Shown here: one piece after another, positions 3,649-17,391 of the stretch
Position numbering within the stretch: position 1 is the stretch's first letter
How the letters are laid out: each line of letters opens with the position of its first letter
IMG/VR virus record: IMGVR_UViG_3300010299_000058
Span: 1 to 25,244 of that record
Direction: 5' to 3' (one strand)
DNA length: 25,244 bases
From: a virus
Translations under genes and position numbers: made by a program
The notes under the pieces: generated by a model
Databases searched by the model: none
Seen by the model: the letters and a program-made list of their open reading frames with translations, nothing else
Told to the model about the DNA's origin: nothing

Positions 3649-4563
3649 ATGGTACAATTAGGTTACGCTTGCATCAATTTGTCATTACCTGCATCACCAA
3701 ACAGGTCAATGATAAAACGTACATTCGATGCAAAAGGTATTGCATACGCCAGCGAATTGGCAATCACAAATGTACGTACCTTAATCGAGGTTATTAAATG
3801 GAATTACAAAAACGATATCAATGTTTACCGCATGTCATCAGACATGGTACCTTGGATGTCACATTACGAACTTACAGATTTACCTGACTACGAACTTTTC
3901 AAAAATCTTCTGCATGGTGCTGGTACATTGGCTAAAAAATATGGTCAACGTATTTCATTTCACCCTGGTCAATTTTGTCAACTAGGTTCTGTCAATCCAG
4001 ACACTGTTATAAAATCAATCAAGGAATTACGGCAACATGCAGAAATCATGGACCTTATGGGGTTGCCTCAATCCAATATGGCCAAAATCAATATTCATGT
4101 TGGTAATGCGGCAGGTGGTAAACTTGCTGCAACTGAAAGGTTTGTTAAAAACTTTTCTCTTCTACCTGACAATGTCAAATCAAGGTTGGTTGTGGAAAAC
4201 GACGACAAACCAGGTTTGTATACAGTACAGGAATTATACGAATTGGTGCACAAACCTCTAGGCATTCCTATTACATTCGATTATCTACATCACCATTGCA
4301 ATCCTGGTGACCTACAGGAACAGCAGGCACTGGAACTCGCAATATCAACATGGCCTTGCAAACCTTGCACGCATTATTCGTCTTCCAAAAAACTATATGA
4401 GGACGAATCAGCTAAGTTATTACAACACGCCGATTATATCTACGAGGAAATTAAAACCTACGGTCACGACATCGACATTGTGTGTGAGGTAAAGGCTAAG
4501 GACCTTGCAATTCTTAAATACCGTGAAAAAATTCCAGATAGGAAAATGTTATTAACTCATTAA
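3649..4563 (+). CDS. uvsE: UV-damage endonuclease UvsE/UVDE
   Basis: A 304-residue TIM-barrel UV-damage endonuclease of the UVDE family, which nicks DNA immediately 5' of UV photoproducts and some other lesions using metal ions. Family signatures are clear: LGYACIN at the start, ISFHPGQF with His105, INIHVG with His150, RLVVENDDK with Glu183, and TFDYLHHHCNPG with Asp211 and His214/215. A late CEVKAKD supplies a further acidic residue. The length fits a complete enzyme. It is preceded by its own class A element and followed after 12 nt by a sigma-factor gene. Together with denV and the glycosylase it gives this phage two independent routes for UV-damage repair. Confidence 0.95.
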   Translation: MVQLGYACINLSLPASPNRSMIKRTFDAKGIAYASELAITNVRTLIEVIKWNYKNDINVYRMSSDMVPWMSHYELTDLPDYELFKNLLHGAGTLAKKYGQRISFHPGQFCQLGSVNPDTVIKSIKELRQHAEIMDLMGLPQSNMAKINIHVGNAAGGKLAATERFVKNFSLLPDNVKSRLVVENDDKPGLYTVQELYELVHKPLGIPITFDYLHHHCNPGDLQEQQALELAISTWPCKPCTHYSSSKKLYEDESAKLLQHADYIYEEIKTYGHDIDIVCEVKAKDLAILKYREKIPDRKMLLTH

Positions 4564-7073: not shown

Positions 7074-7466
7074 ATGAGTAAAGAAAAAGACGTAAAACAG
7101 AGAAGAAAAGCAATCGACTGTAAGCTGATTGAACCTAGCAAAACAAGTCCTGGTTATTTCAAATATGCAATAACAATCAGGGAATTGGATGGAACCATAC
7201 ATACCGTACCTGCATACGGAGTCGACATGCAGGATGCAATTAGAAGACTTCTTAAAACTGAAAGGGACGCTAAAATCAACAAGGTGTATATTAGGAAAAT
7301 TGAACCAATTACATTAATAGTAATATTTACATGCTGGGTGGTTTCAGTTATTTTATCTCTTGCTTTGGATAATTACCAATATGCATACTTGGGTGTGATA
7401 TCATTATTCACAGTTGTGTTTTCTGTTGCTGTATTTAGATTTATAAGAGGAATACAGGATAATTAA
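7074..7466 (+). CDS. hypothetical protein with C-terminal membrane hairpin
   Basis: A 130-residue protein with a soluble N-terminal 80 residues (IEPSKTSPGYFKYAITIREL, DGTIHTVPAYGVDMQDAIRR), which looks like a compact alpha/beta domain. Two transmembrane helices follow at about 80-97 (ITLIVIFTCWVVSVILSLAL) and 103-122 (YAYLGVISLFTVVFSVAVF). The tail is short and basic. No class A element precedes it; an 81-nt gap with the hairpins at 6988-7012 separates it from the previous gene. It is the last protein gene before the 636-bp structured RNA region. Confidence 0.7.
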   Translation: MSKEKDVKQRRKAIDCKLIEPSKTSPGYFKYAITIRELDGTIHTVPAYGVDMQDAIRRLLKTERDAKINKVYIRKIEPITLIVIFTCWVVSVILSLALDNYQYAYLGVISLFTVVFSVAVFRFIRGIQDN

Positions 7467-7480
7467 GACAAAAGCTTGTG

Positions 7481-7490
7481 ATATTTATTT
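7481..7490 (+). promoter_or_regulatory. class B motif (ATATTTATTT) before the structured RNA region
   Basis: ATATTTATTT, shared with sites before phoH and several late or structural genes. Here it stands 15 nt after a stop codon at the start of the gene-free region, where a transcript for the RNAs below would begin. Confidence 0.45.
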
Positions 7491-7494
7491 AAGC

Positions 7495-7830
7495 TAAAAT
7501 TAAAACGATCTTTGAAAAATTAAAGGACACTCAAACAATCGACGGATTAAGTAGAGTGAGTTGTGTGACCGAATAAACTGTTAACAGGAGCAGTTAAGGT
7601 ACTCGAACAGAACGATGGTTCACTAAGGCCTCAAATGAGGAACAGCATCGGAATAACTACCGGGTTCGAGGTTTTTGTCAAAAACAGAAAATTGGATTCT
7701 GTAAAGACATTTAGGTAAGCGAGAGCGAAATCCTAATTTATGACTGAACAACGCAAAGAGTATGTGGCGTAAGGTACACTTGATAGTTGTGGTAACTATA
7801 TACAATGCAAAAGGCTCGGCCGTTTTTTGT
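7495..7830 (+). ncRNA. candidate structured non-coding RNA of unknown class
   Basis: This gene-free stretch has many exact inverted repeats. CTCGAAC (7602-7608) pairs with GTTCGAG (7664-7670). Inside, CGATGGTTC (7613-7621) pairs with GAAC (7640-7643) and CATCG (7646-7650), and inside that CCTC pairs with GAGG (7629-7640). Further stems are CACTC/GAGTG (7528-7558), AACTG/CAGTT (7576-7595), ACAGAA/TTCTGT (7684-7702), TTAGG/CCTAA (7711-7736) and ATAGTT/AACTAT (7783-7799). GGC-TCG-GCC with six T (7813-7828) could end it. I looked for RNase P and group I/II intron signatures and saw none. A class B motif lies just upstream and a tmRNA-like RNA follows. Boundaries are approximate. A ROOL- or GOLLD-type large phage RNA is possible but not recognised. 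Confidence 0.6.
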
Positions 7831-7939
7831 GAGTATATGAAAGGCATTTCAAGATAGTGGTTGTCTAACTTAAAGCAGCTCGACGATTTGAAGGTATTCC
7901 ATAATCCTTCCACAGCGTTCCTTTTTATTTTTACATCTT

Positions 7940-8053
7940 GGGGTTGACTCGGATTTGACAGGGATAACGAAGGCATTAAACGACCAAGTGATTCGCCACC
8001 CTCCACAAGGAGGAGTTTTCAACTGGACGAGGGTTCGAAACCCTCCAACTCCA
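7940..8053 (+). ncRNA. short tmRNA-like RNA: tRNA-like domain without a tag-coding region
   Basis: The ends of this 114-nt stretch match the tRNA-like domain of tmRNA. GGGGTTG (7940-7946) pairs with CAACTCC (8046-8052), giving a 7-bp acceptor stem with a G3-U70 wobble, the alanine identity pair, followed by discriminator A8053. GGAC precedes a perfect T arm: GAGGG (8029-8033), loop TTCGAAA, CCCTC (8041-8045), joined directly to the acceptor strand as in tmRNA. GGATTTGACAGGG (7951-7963) matches the tmRNA D-region consensus GGATTCGAC. Bacterial tmRNAs are about 300-400 nt and carry a tag frame plus pseudoknots; here only about 65 nt lie between the D and T regions, with hairpin CCTCC-ACAA-GGAGG (8000-8013) and no plausible tag frame with a stop. 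The CCA end is not encoded. Function is unknown: it could be a decoy, a reduced tmRNA, or one part of a larger RNA. Confidence 0.72.
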
Positions 8054-8090
8054 CAATTTAAAATAATTCCCCATTCTTTTATCTATACTG

Positions 8091-8100
8091 ATATTTATTT
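8091..8100 (+). promoter_or_regulatory. class B motif (ATATTTATTT) next to phoH
   Basis: The same ATATTTATTT as at 7481. It ends 2 nt before the first possible phoH ATG at 8103, so if it is a promoter the transcript would start inside the first codons, favouring the later ATG at 8181. Confidence 0.4.
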
Positions 8101-8102
8101 GT

Positions 8103-8843
8103 ATGGAAAACATTAATCATGAAGGCCACGTTTCTGGCCATAAGGTTTCAAAACCTAGAAATGTTGTAGGTACAAATAAAATGAAAAAACCTCCTAAAAA
8201 TCCAATTAAATTTAACATACAGTTAAATGAAGAACAGAAGGAGGCCAAATCAATAATCATGGCAAATGCCGTAACAATCCTAACAGGAAAGGCAGGTTCA
8301 GGTAAAACATTATTAGCATGTCAAACTGCACTTGACCAATTCTTTACAAGACAAATCGAAAGAATATACATAGTCAGGTCAACTGTTTCAAAAGAAGACA
8401 TTGGGTATTTACCTGGTGACCTTTATGAAAAAATGGAACCTTGGATGCAGCCGATTATAGGCAATATGCATTTATTATATAACAAGGAAAAGATTGACCA
8501 ATTACTTGCTGAAGGTATTTTGTCTATTGTTCCTATTGCTTTTATGAGAGGAAGAACATTTACAGATTCCTGCATTATAGTTGACGAGGCACAGAACATT
8601 ACCGATGAACAGTTGGAAATGATATTATCACGTTTAGGTATTGGAAGTAAAATGATTCTTTGTGGAGATGCTGCTCAAAACGATTTTAAAAGAAAATCAG
8701 ATTCAGGTTTCGAGGAGCTTTTAAAAATGTCTAACAATGTTGATGATTTAGGTTTATATCAACTACAGAAAAATCATAGACATAGTGTTGTTGACAAAAT
8801 CCTAAATGAATATTCAAAAATAAGAGAAGAAAAAAGAAAATAA
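8103..8843 (+). CDS. phoH: PhoH-like ATPase
   Basis: A 246-residue PhoH-family P-loop ATPase, common in large phages. The Walker A motif is GKAGSGKT (residues 62-69) and Walker B is IIVDEAQN (158-165), followed by LILCGDAAQND-like sequence (MILCGDAAQND) and NHRHS near the end, as in the superfamily-1 helicase-like PhoH core. The role in phages is not established; the family links to nucleotide or RNA metabolism. The first ATG (8103) lies immediately after the class B motif and has no ribosome-binding site. The ATG at 8181 (MKKPPKNPIKFNIQL), in the context AAATAAAATG, gives a protein 26 residues shorter and may be the true start. It is the first gene after the structured RNA region. Confidence 0.92.
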   Translation: MENINHEGHVSGHKVSKPRNVVGTNKMKKPPKNPIKFNIQLNEEQKEAKSIIMANAVTILTGKAGSGKTLLACQTALDQFFTRQIERIYIVRSTVSKEDIGYLPGDLYEKMEPWMQPIIGNMHLLYNKEKIDQLLAEGILSIVPIAFMRGRTFTDSCIIVDEAQNITDEQLEMILSRLGIGSKMILCGDAAQNDFKRKSDSGFEELLKMSNNVDDLGLYQLQKNHRHSVVDKILNEYSKIREEKRK

Positions 8844-13726: not shown

Positions 13727-13743
13727 AATAAACCTTGTATATT

Positions 13744-13953
13744 ATGTCAATAAAAACTAACATATATTTAGACGATGAGGCATTTGATACGATTGCCAAA
13801 ATAAATTCTCAATTCGAAGGTGAAGAGAGACTATCTGAAATTAAAAAATATTTTACTTCTAGAGCCAATTACATTTCAAGGACTACAGGGTGGGATTTTT
13901 CCAGATTGGCTTGGGCGGTATATACAGACAAGGTGGTGGTGCATGGGAACTAA
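13744..13953 (+). CDS. small hypothetical protein
   Basis: A 69-residue protein starting MSIKTNIYLDDEAFDTIAKI. A TTG three codons upstream also opens the frame, but ATG at 13744 is the natural start. The sequence is helical with a C-terminal aromatic strand region (WDFSRLAWAVYTDKVVVHGN). No family is recognised. The next gene overlaps it by 11 nt, so the two are probably translated together. Confidence 0.6.
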   Translation: MSIKTNIYLDDEAFDTIAKINSQFEGEERLSEIKKYFTSRANYISRTTGWDFSRLAWAVYTDKVVVHGN

Positions 13954-16240: not shown

Positions 16241-16771
16241 ATGGCTAAACATGGTAAATTAAGTGTAGCTGATATAAAAGAGTTACACAAAAAATATAAC
16301 AGGACCAAAAAGGTTTTGGATACGTGGAATCAAAAAGGAGAATGGTGGCATCTTGACTGTAAGATTTGCGGTGTTTCTACACCCTGCTCTGAAGGTGCAA
16401 CAAGTATTGTATGTTATAGATGTACCAATGCTATGGTACCGTGGGAAGATACTTTACCTCCTAGTTTCTTTTCTAGACCTAGACATTCCGGTCCTAAAAG
16501 ACCAGCCGGTTGGCATTTCATGTCGGTCTTTGTAGATAAGGATGGTACAGTTTTTCATAAAGGAGTTGAGCAGCCAGATTTAAAAGGTACACTTGAACCT
16601 ACAAAGATTGAGGAAAAAAAGAAGATGTCAAAATCTGAGAAGGCTGAACATAATCGAGAGATTAATTCCAAAATTTTTAAACTTAAAAAGAAATTACCAA
16701 CTCTTAAATTGAAAAAAGATATAAGAGCTACTGAGGTTGAAATAAGAAAGTTACAAAGGCAGATAAAATGA
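16241..16771 (+). CDS. zinc-ribbon-like protein with basic coiled tail
   Basis: A 176-residue basic protein. Residues 40-61 hold paired cysteines: Cys40-x2-Cys43, Cys49, and Cys58-x2-Cys61 (LDCKICG...VCYRC), consistent with a zinc ribbon or similar metal site. A Pro/Arg-rich middle (SRPRHSGPKRPAGWHF) follows, then a Lys-rich helical C-terminus (SKIFKLKKKLPTLKLKKDIR) that could bind nucleic acid. No named family is recognised. Its stop overlaps the start of the deformylase-like gene as ATGA (16768-16771), which suggests coupled translation. Confidence 0.7.
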   Translation: MAKHGKLSVADIKELHKKYNRTKKVLDTWNQKGEWWHLDCKICGVSTPCSEGATSIVCYRCTNAMVPWEDTLPPSFFSRPRHSGPKRPAGWHFMSVFVDKDGTVFHKGVEQPDLKGTLEPTKIEEKKKMSKSEKAEHNREINSKIFKLKKKLPTLKLKKDIRATEVEIRKLQRQIK

Positions 16772-17391
16772 TTAAAGAATTAGTAGAATTAGTTCCTGGC
16801 CAAATAGCTGAGGATTTGGATATCAAGGATAAAGAATATACAAATGAGCTATTCAAGGATATGAGTAAAAGATTACTTAATGAACCTTCAGCTTATTTTA
16901 TAACAGCTCCACAAATAGGTGTAAACAAAAGAGCTGGAATTGTTTTAATACCAGGATTAAATCCAATATTGTTAGTTAATCCTAAAATAGTTAATAAAAA
17001 TTGGGAAATACCTTTTATTGAAAGTAATATATCGTTTCCCAATCAGTTGTTTGAAACATTTAGATATGCCAGTATAACAGTTAAATCTGATAATTTTCCA
17101 AATGGTAATATAAGGTTTGGTGTTAAAGAGGATATGGCAAAAATAATTTTAAAGGATATAGAAAATTATGCTCACCCAAATATACATCAGGCAGTCGCAA
17201 TCCAACAAGTGATTGATATATTAGATGGTAAAAATTCAGATGATAAAAAAAATCCACAAAGTTTTGATTTTAAAAAACATGGTAGAAACGAGGTTGTGGA
17301 AATAGAAAAAGATGGTGAATCTAAAAAAATAAAATATAAAAAAGCAATTCCATTTCTACAACAAGGATGGACAATAAAAAAGATAGATTAA
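16768..17391 (+). CDS. peptide deformylase-like protein without catalytic residues
   Basis: A 207-residue relative of peptide deformylase, the metalloenzyme that removes the formyl group from new proteins. Motif 1 (GxGLAAxQIG) appears as FITAPQIGV (44-52). Motif 2 (EGCLSFPG) appears as ESNISFPN (85-92), with the metal-binding Cys replaced by Asn87. Motif 3 (QHExDHLxG) appears as QQVIDILDG (146-154), where both His and the catalytic Glu are replaced (Gln147, Val148, Ile151). All three metal ligands and the general base are gone, so deformylation is very unlikely. A C-terminal extension of about 50 residues, lysine-rich, follows. The protein may have been reused as a binding or structural protein. 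It lies directly before the ClpP-type protease. Confidence 0.75.
   Translation: MIKELVELVPGQIAEDLDIKDKEYTNELFKDMSKRLLNEPSAYFITAPQIGVNKRAGIVLIPGLNPILLVNPKIVNKNWEIPFIESNISFPNQLFETFRYASITVKSDNFPNGNIRFGVKEDMAKIILKDIENYAHPNIHQAVAIQQVIDILDGKNSDDKKNPQSFDFKKHGRNEVVEIEKDGESKKIKYKKAIPFLQQGWTIKKID

Follow-up and report, generated by a model that had tools for sequence, protein, structure and literature searches.

Two divergent manA modules enclosed by a single P1 helix in a structured phage RNA

Introduction

Tandem glycine riboswitches are two-aptamer riboswitches, in which two similar modules lie side by side. The manA motif (Rfam RF01745), a candidate riboswitch described in 2010, is still an orphan, and the Rfam family model gives each copy a P1 of its own. 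In the part of the original report drawn on here, Weinberg et al. proposed manA as a riboswitch in 5' UTRs and marked its pseudoknot as uncertain (PMC2864571), and in the relevant section of the CaCoFold paper manA figures among the families with database structures without covarying pairs (PMC7657543). A manA within a tRNA array of the Bifidobacterium megaplasmid pMP7017 was reported from transcriptome analysis, and manA can adjoin tRNAs according to the authors of that work (PMC10832533). GOLLD and ROOL are structured phage RNAs described as often lying near tRNA islands, with GOLLD members often longer than 800 nt (PMC12286853).

The RNA described here lies in a viral record (IMG/VR IMGVR_UViG_3300010299_000058), of which the whole stretch of 25,244 nucleotides analysed is called the window. 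It is close to certain that this region encodes a real structured RNA, made up of two tandem divergent manA modules within one P1. The manA motif itself is known; the two-module form under one P1 in phages is the new part, no such tandem having been found in the literature searched, which covered Weinberg et al. (2010) without its supplementary files. The likeness to the two-aptamer riboswitches is one of arrangement, as both have two similar adjacent modules; unlike the tandem glycine riboswitches, the window RNA has one P1 around both modules and no known ligand.

Two manA modules in the window

The spacer at 7467–8102 lies between two protein genes and holds no convincing reading frame, in agreement with a preliminary description that had proposed at 7495–7830 a highly structured phage RNA of unknown class and no protein gene. 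An Rfam scan of this spacer at the gathering threshold gave a sole match, a tmRNA at 7940–8056 (+ strand, 54.9 bits), which is the next gene downstream and confirms that the RNA lies beside a tmRNA-like RNA. The relaxed Rfam scan of 7440–8110 revealed manA at 7548–7713 (27.0 bits, E 5.7e-5) and a second manA at 7741–7910 (29.0 bits, E 1.5e-5), both missing the manA gathering cut-off of 55.2 bits. The class is therefore not unknown: the Rfam comparison that had been suggested identified a known motif, and what it did not account for is the two-copy form under one P1, of which the papers searched gave no description.

Module 1 (7566–7740, + strand) contains the core UGACCGAAUAA..UAAGGU, a four-way part at 7602–7670, a hairpin at 7684–7702 and a GGUA/AAUCC hairpin at 7711–7736. 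Module 2 (7741–7910, + strand) repeats this plan, with the core UGACUGAACAA..UAAGGU, helices at 7777–7859 and a GGUA/AAUCC hairpin at 7890–7910. The window RNA thus shares with RF01745 the P2 with its UGACYGAAYAA/UAAGGU core, the multi-branched part and the final GGUA/AAUCC hairpin, together with the 5' GACG hairpin, a possible pseudoknot and the occurrence in phages. It differs in its two modules within one P1, in the 27–29 bits reached per copy and in being followed by a tmRNA-like RNA and not by a protein gene. The pattern TGACYGAAYAA-N10..30-TAAGGTA occurs at two sites in the window, both of them manA cores, with 0 expected in shuffles; as the pattern was fitted to both window sites, its uniqueness shows a shared core only.

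Further evidence came from R1, a covariance model built from 47 second copies (alignment A3), all from a gp32-linked group of tandems (see below), with the window and its close relatives left out of the training set. Applied to the whole window with filters off, R1 matched 7566–7711 (43.0 bits, E 6.2e-9) and 7741–7913 (29.2 bits, E 1.1e-5); the third-best match has an E of 0.19, so that the two manA copies are the only significant ones, all these E-values being rough because the calibration was shortened. R1 recovers L008, L012, L019 and L057, which scored highest for manA among 16 loci checked with Rfam (see below; L-numbers denote loci from scanned contigs), and is narrow, the manA of pMP7017 not being found by it. 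Since the well-supported window copies reach only about half the cut-off, a divergent manA branch escapes the Rfam model.

A large ornate RNA of GOLLD or ROOL type, as suggested in the preliminary description, or a wholly new class is very improbable at this locus. The RNA does resemble GOLLD and ROOL in being a phage RNA near tRNA-type genes, the setting reported for both in the section cited (PMC12286853), but the Rfam scan of 7440–8110 matched neither of them up to E 5, other known families gave no match either, the domain spans about 400 nt against the often more than 800 nt of GOLLD, with no sequence or structure match, and the manA and R1 matches explain the whole of it.

Comparative evidence for the structure

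A search with the exact copy-2 core yielded 19 close relatives, and both copies are present in every one whose locus extends far enough. Alignment A2 comprises 10 distinct sequences, window included, and was scored against a structure of 81 pairs derived from the window. In A2, 88.6% of the cells are paired (82.7% in shuffles), 28 of the 81 pairs are changed on both sides (10.2 ± 1.8 in shuffles) and 50 cells show a both-side change (14.8 ± 2.7 in shuffles), and slid controls gave 4 compensatory pairs at most; the shuffle counts are not probabilities, given the kinship of the aligned sequences. Many of the compensatory changes come from the window, the most divergent of the rows. The joint alignment of both tandem groups (A1), in which copy 2 was shifted, was excluded from counting.

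The nested set of stems noted earlier at 7602–7670, with CTCGAAC/GTTCGAG around GAAC/GTTC, CCTC/GAGG and a third hairpin, is borne out, as it covaries in the relatives. In module 2, the helix 7808–7815/7822–7829 (7808–7829, + strand) has 100% of its A2 cells paired and four of its eight pairs compensatory. Weakly paired in A2 are P0 (35%), the third hairpin of copy 1 (60%), the hairpin at 7684–7702 (55%) and 7783–7799 (70%); by eye these hairpins form in the relatives, where MAFFT offsets them by at least one column.

Single-sequence folding of 7467–7940 is ordinary (z –0.53; of 100 shuffles, 32 equalled or exceeded its stability), and folding energy gives no support for structure over 7467–7940 or 7467–8060. 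Inverted repeats of at least 6 nt amount to 53 pairs in 611 bases and are thus common in this region. The proof of structure therefore comes from the comparative evidence alone, and the earlier description of a highly structured RNA holds as regards covariation in the relatives, while the folding of the single sequence stays at chance level. The ordinary folding energy is what would be expected if there were no RNA here and the inverted repeats had arisen by chance in an AT-rich spacer; given that the compensatory changes greatly exceed those in both controls and that the RNA has homologues in an established family, such a reading is next to impossible.

A shared P1 and a possible pseudoknot

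The limits first proposed, 7495–7830, are too narrow, the RNA domain starting at about 7515–7528 and ending at about 7916–7931. At its 5' side stands P0 (7528–7558, + strand), a hairpin formed by CACTC/GAGTG and then AATC/GATT, whose position and GACG loop match the manA consensus and which aligns poorly with the close relatives (35% of cells). The closing P1 of each module is absent in the window tandem, and one P1 encloses both modules, GUUGUG at 7560–7565 pairing with CACAGC at 7911–7916 (both + strand). The domain of about 7528–7916 is thus a single unit, in which two manA modules are closed by a shared P1. In the close relatives the same helix reads GAUGCG/CGCAUC or GAUGCG/CGUAUC, and in A2 60 of 60 cells are paired, two pairs showing both-side change. 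Among the 39 full tandems of the gp32-linked group (alignment A4) it is GGGAU/AUCCC or GGAAU/AUUCC, with 195 of 195 cells paired. A4 holds one compensatory pair (GC 31, AU 8), and 440 of 500 shuffles contain at least one such pair; the case for P1 therefore draws its strength from two groups that form it with different sequences.

Outside P0 and P1, the strand AAAGGA (7522–7527, + strand) is complementary to 7919–7924. This possible outer closing helix is suggestive in single sequences, and a swap test in other tandems gave it no support (17.7 against 17.0 ± 0.46).

In module 2 a possible pseudoknot joins the P2 loop (7758–7765, + strand) to 7875–7881 through 7 pairs with one bulge. In the window group it is paired in 70 of 70 cells over 10 rows and is nearly invariant, the variation being G-C/G-U only. 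In the second copy of the gp32-linked group the P2 loop forms a pseudoknot with a strand further downstream (CUCAGA/UCUGAG), and this one covaries, one pair being AU in 30, GC in 11 and UA in 6 sequences.

Tandem manA in other phages

Tandem manA is widespread in phage contigs. A first scan of viral contigs with the core pattern returned at least 120 stretches, chance matches among them, of which 82 of 120 pass the tail filter; 10 of 16 loci chosen from these stretches carry Rfam manA above the cut-off, and in many scanned loci two manA cores lie about 175–190 nt apart. A junction-pattern scan likewise returned at least 120 stretches, partly from the same loci, and 115 of the 120 listed are tandems by their core; the other five were dropped as chance matches. 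Where the close relatives of the window show an Rfam manA match it stays below the cut-off, at 25–32 bits, and in the gp32-linked group a copy exceeds it in L003, L009, L016, L038, L041, L047, L052, L058 and L267. The contig L204, which already carries a tandem, gave two weak extra R1 matches, at 551–721 (15.1 bits, E 0.34) and 13731–13895 (14.3 bits, E 0.52), both on the – strand.

In cellular genomes the junction pattern gave 51 stretches, one of which passed a loose filter without the rest of the module, and no true tandem. A DNA search for named phage relatives returned none for either tandem group, and the 17 records matching the window stretch do so over about 30–40 nt of the tmRNA-like part. 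R1 had no match in Flavobacterium phage immuto and Microcystis phage Mel-JY01, the nearest isolates by gp32 or PhoH, nor in Synechococcus phage ACG-2014f; 80 loci of PhoH relatives were used in the pattern scan only.

Gene neighbourhood and transcription signals

The order in the window is tandem manA, tmRNA-like RNA and then phoH (8103–8843, PHROG match). The window has 7 copies of the class B motif ATATTTATWT, where 1.36 would be expected, and all are on the + strand. As the preliminary description had it, one copy (ATATTTATTT, 7481–7490, + strand) lies upstream of the RNA. This copy is a putative promoter; another (8091–8100, + strand) ends 2 nt before the phoH start codon. With a motif of its own before phoH, the manA-tmRNA stretch can be a separate unit, and the co-transcription of both RNAs put forward earlier is plausible. 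The promoter-like class B sites lie upstream of genes at 7481, 8091, 8859, 13715, 15131, 20486 and 23963, and a class A promoter-like motif, T(A/T)GTATATTAG, does so at 1610, 3614, 5225, 6562, 9320, 11315 and 12716, all on the + strand. Other genes of this phage include those for a UV-endonuclease UvdE and a peptide deformylase (3649–4563 and 16768–17391).

A terminator hairpin once placed at 7813–7828 was rejected, as these positions are the end of the covarying helix 7808–7815/7822–7829 inside copy 2, and a terminator scan of 7400–8150 called none, the T-rich tract at 7919–7931 (+ strand) included. This tract, read from the sequence, follows the RNA domain as a possible 3' end, and a T-run stands at the equivalent position in the close relatives.

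Elsewhere the tandem has clearer flanks. In 44 of 57 non-redundant listed loci the 175 nt that follow the tandem contain a hairpin with a T-run after it (background, 10 of 1752 windows), the stem varying by locus (GAACCTT, TGGCCAT or CACCACCT, for example), and the promoter-like block ATATATAT precedes the tandem in 27 of 31 listed loci (background, 52 of 990). With a promoter-like block upstream and a terminator downstream, the tandem has the look of a gene whose start and stop are its own. In L003, L024, L058 and others the loop of the terminator hairpin, about 20–80 nt after the tandem, bears a conserved CGATTTTTAGTTTCCAC, which exceeds what a terminator needs.

With the window row left out, the first downstream feature is a same-strand ORF in 101 of the 115 listed tandem loci of the gp32-linked group. 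This ORF encodes a gp32-like single-strand DNA-binding protein in 89 of the 101, at a distance of mostly about 150–260 nt. Among the 19 close relatives two are cut off, and all 17 loci with a downstream ORF have one of an unnamed family about 25–29 nt after the tandem; none of these 17 has a tmRNA-like RNA directly after it.

These neighbours bear on whether the tandem is a cis-acting leader, that is, a pair of riboswitch-like 5' UTR sensors in which the closing of P1 would gate transcription into the tmRNA-like RNA and phoH in the window and into the next ORF in the relatives, as in a two-aptamer riboswitch. The proposal of manA as a 5' UTR riboswitch in the section of the original report cited above (PMC2864571), the short distance to the ORF in all 17 close-relative loci, single modules that often stand shortly before a start codon (L007, L088 and L100, for example) and the prevalence of gp32 downstream agree with such a leader, and the switch itself could consist in the terminator that follows the tandem. 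On the other hand, the next gene in the window is noncoding, phoH has its own promoter-like motif, the downstream genes vary among tandems, and some modules have a tRNA on either side or immediately follow a tRNA or tmRNA. A cis-acting leader thus keeps a substantial minority share of the probability, mainly because of the close relatives.

A free-standing noncoding RNA is the reading we consider somewhat the better founded, because tandems elsewhere are flanked by a promoter-like block and a terminator, because phoH has its own motif and because manA adjoins tRNA and tmRNA above chance (see below), the transcriptome-based report of manA in the pMP7017 tRNA array (PMC10832533) pointing the same way. 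Against it stand the close-relative tandems, placed before an ORF as a leader would be, the lack of a called terminator in the window and the minority share of tRNA/tmRNA adjacency. Such an RNA would have its promoter in the class B motif at 7481 and its 3' end near 7931; it would be made singly or as part of a joint transcript with the tmRNA-like RNA, and would not serve as a phoH leader. Its modules may present one binding site twice over, to a metabolite, a protein or a ribosomal partner, with P1 keeping the two sites adjacent. The RNA might accumulate during infection and act with the tRNA/tmRNA set of the phage, the translation machinery being its most likely target; a link to translation is advanced tentatively. 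It is nearly an even prospect that, more generally, the double manA is a widespread phage noncoding RNA gene with its own promoter and terminator, set beside gp32, tmRNA or tRNA genes, and that manA is mainly trans-acting. If so, manA would work chiefly in trans and not as a cis-acting riboswitch, its target during infection being perhaps the ribosome or tRNA/tmRNA. The tandem form in phages, with its promoter-like and terminator-like flanks, offers a direct test of cis against trans action for manA.

manA modules beside tRNAs and tmRNAs

The first scan supplied 53 non-redundant modules, of which 8 have a same-strand tRNA or tmRNA no more than 20 nt away; random placement in the same loci put a mean of 1.3 that close and reached 8 in none of 2000 trials. 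The adjacency is a minority pattern (8/53). In an Rfam check of 17 loci manA exceeded the cut-off in 8. In L029 the distances from Rfam-level manA to tRNAs are 6 nt on its upstream side and 1 nt on its downstream side; elsewhere such manA follows a tRNA by 1 nt in L102 and by 10 nt in L074, and follows a permuted tmRNA by 10 nt in L078 and by 13 nt in L028. In these last two loci (L078:1273–1446, + strand; L028:3108–3284, – strand) the tmRNA directly before manA is of the permuted alphaproteobacteria type. The adjacency of manA to tRNAs is not new, having been noted by the pMP7017 authors in the passage cited (PMC10832533); what is added here is the count and the tmRNA cases.

The tmRNA-like RNA of the window (7940–8056) has 43 nt where the Rfam tmRNA model has 302 positions. 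ARAGORN called no tmRNA there, no tag frame with a stop was seen by eye inside 7940–8056, and a pattern scan for relatives of this RNA gave 0. On its own it folds well (z –2.03).

The manA of pMP7017 scores 41.5 bits, short of the cut-off, and is flanked by tRNA-Phe and tRNA-Arg. Like the window RNA it is found near tmRNA, the pMP7017 copy sitting inside a tRNA array; unlike the window RNA, it is one module, on a plasmid and not in a phage. After this manA (L370:4657–4870) a hairpin-like stretch with a T-run can be seen by eye.
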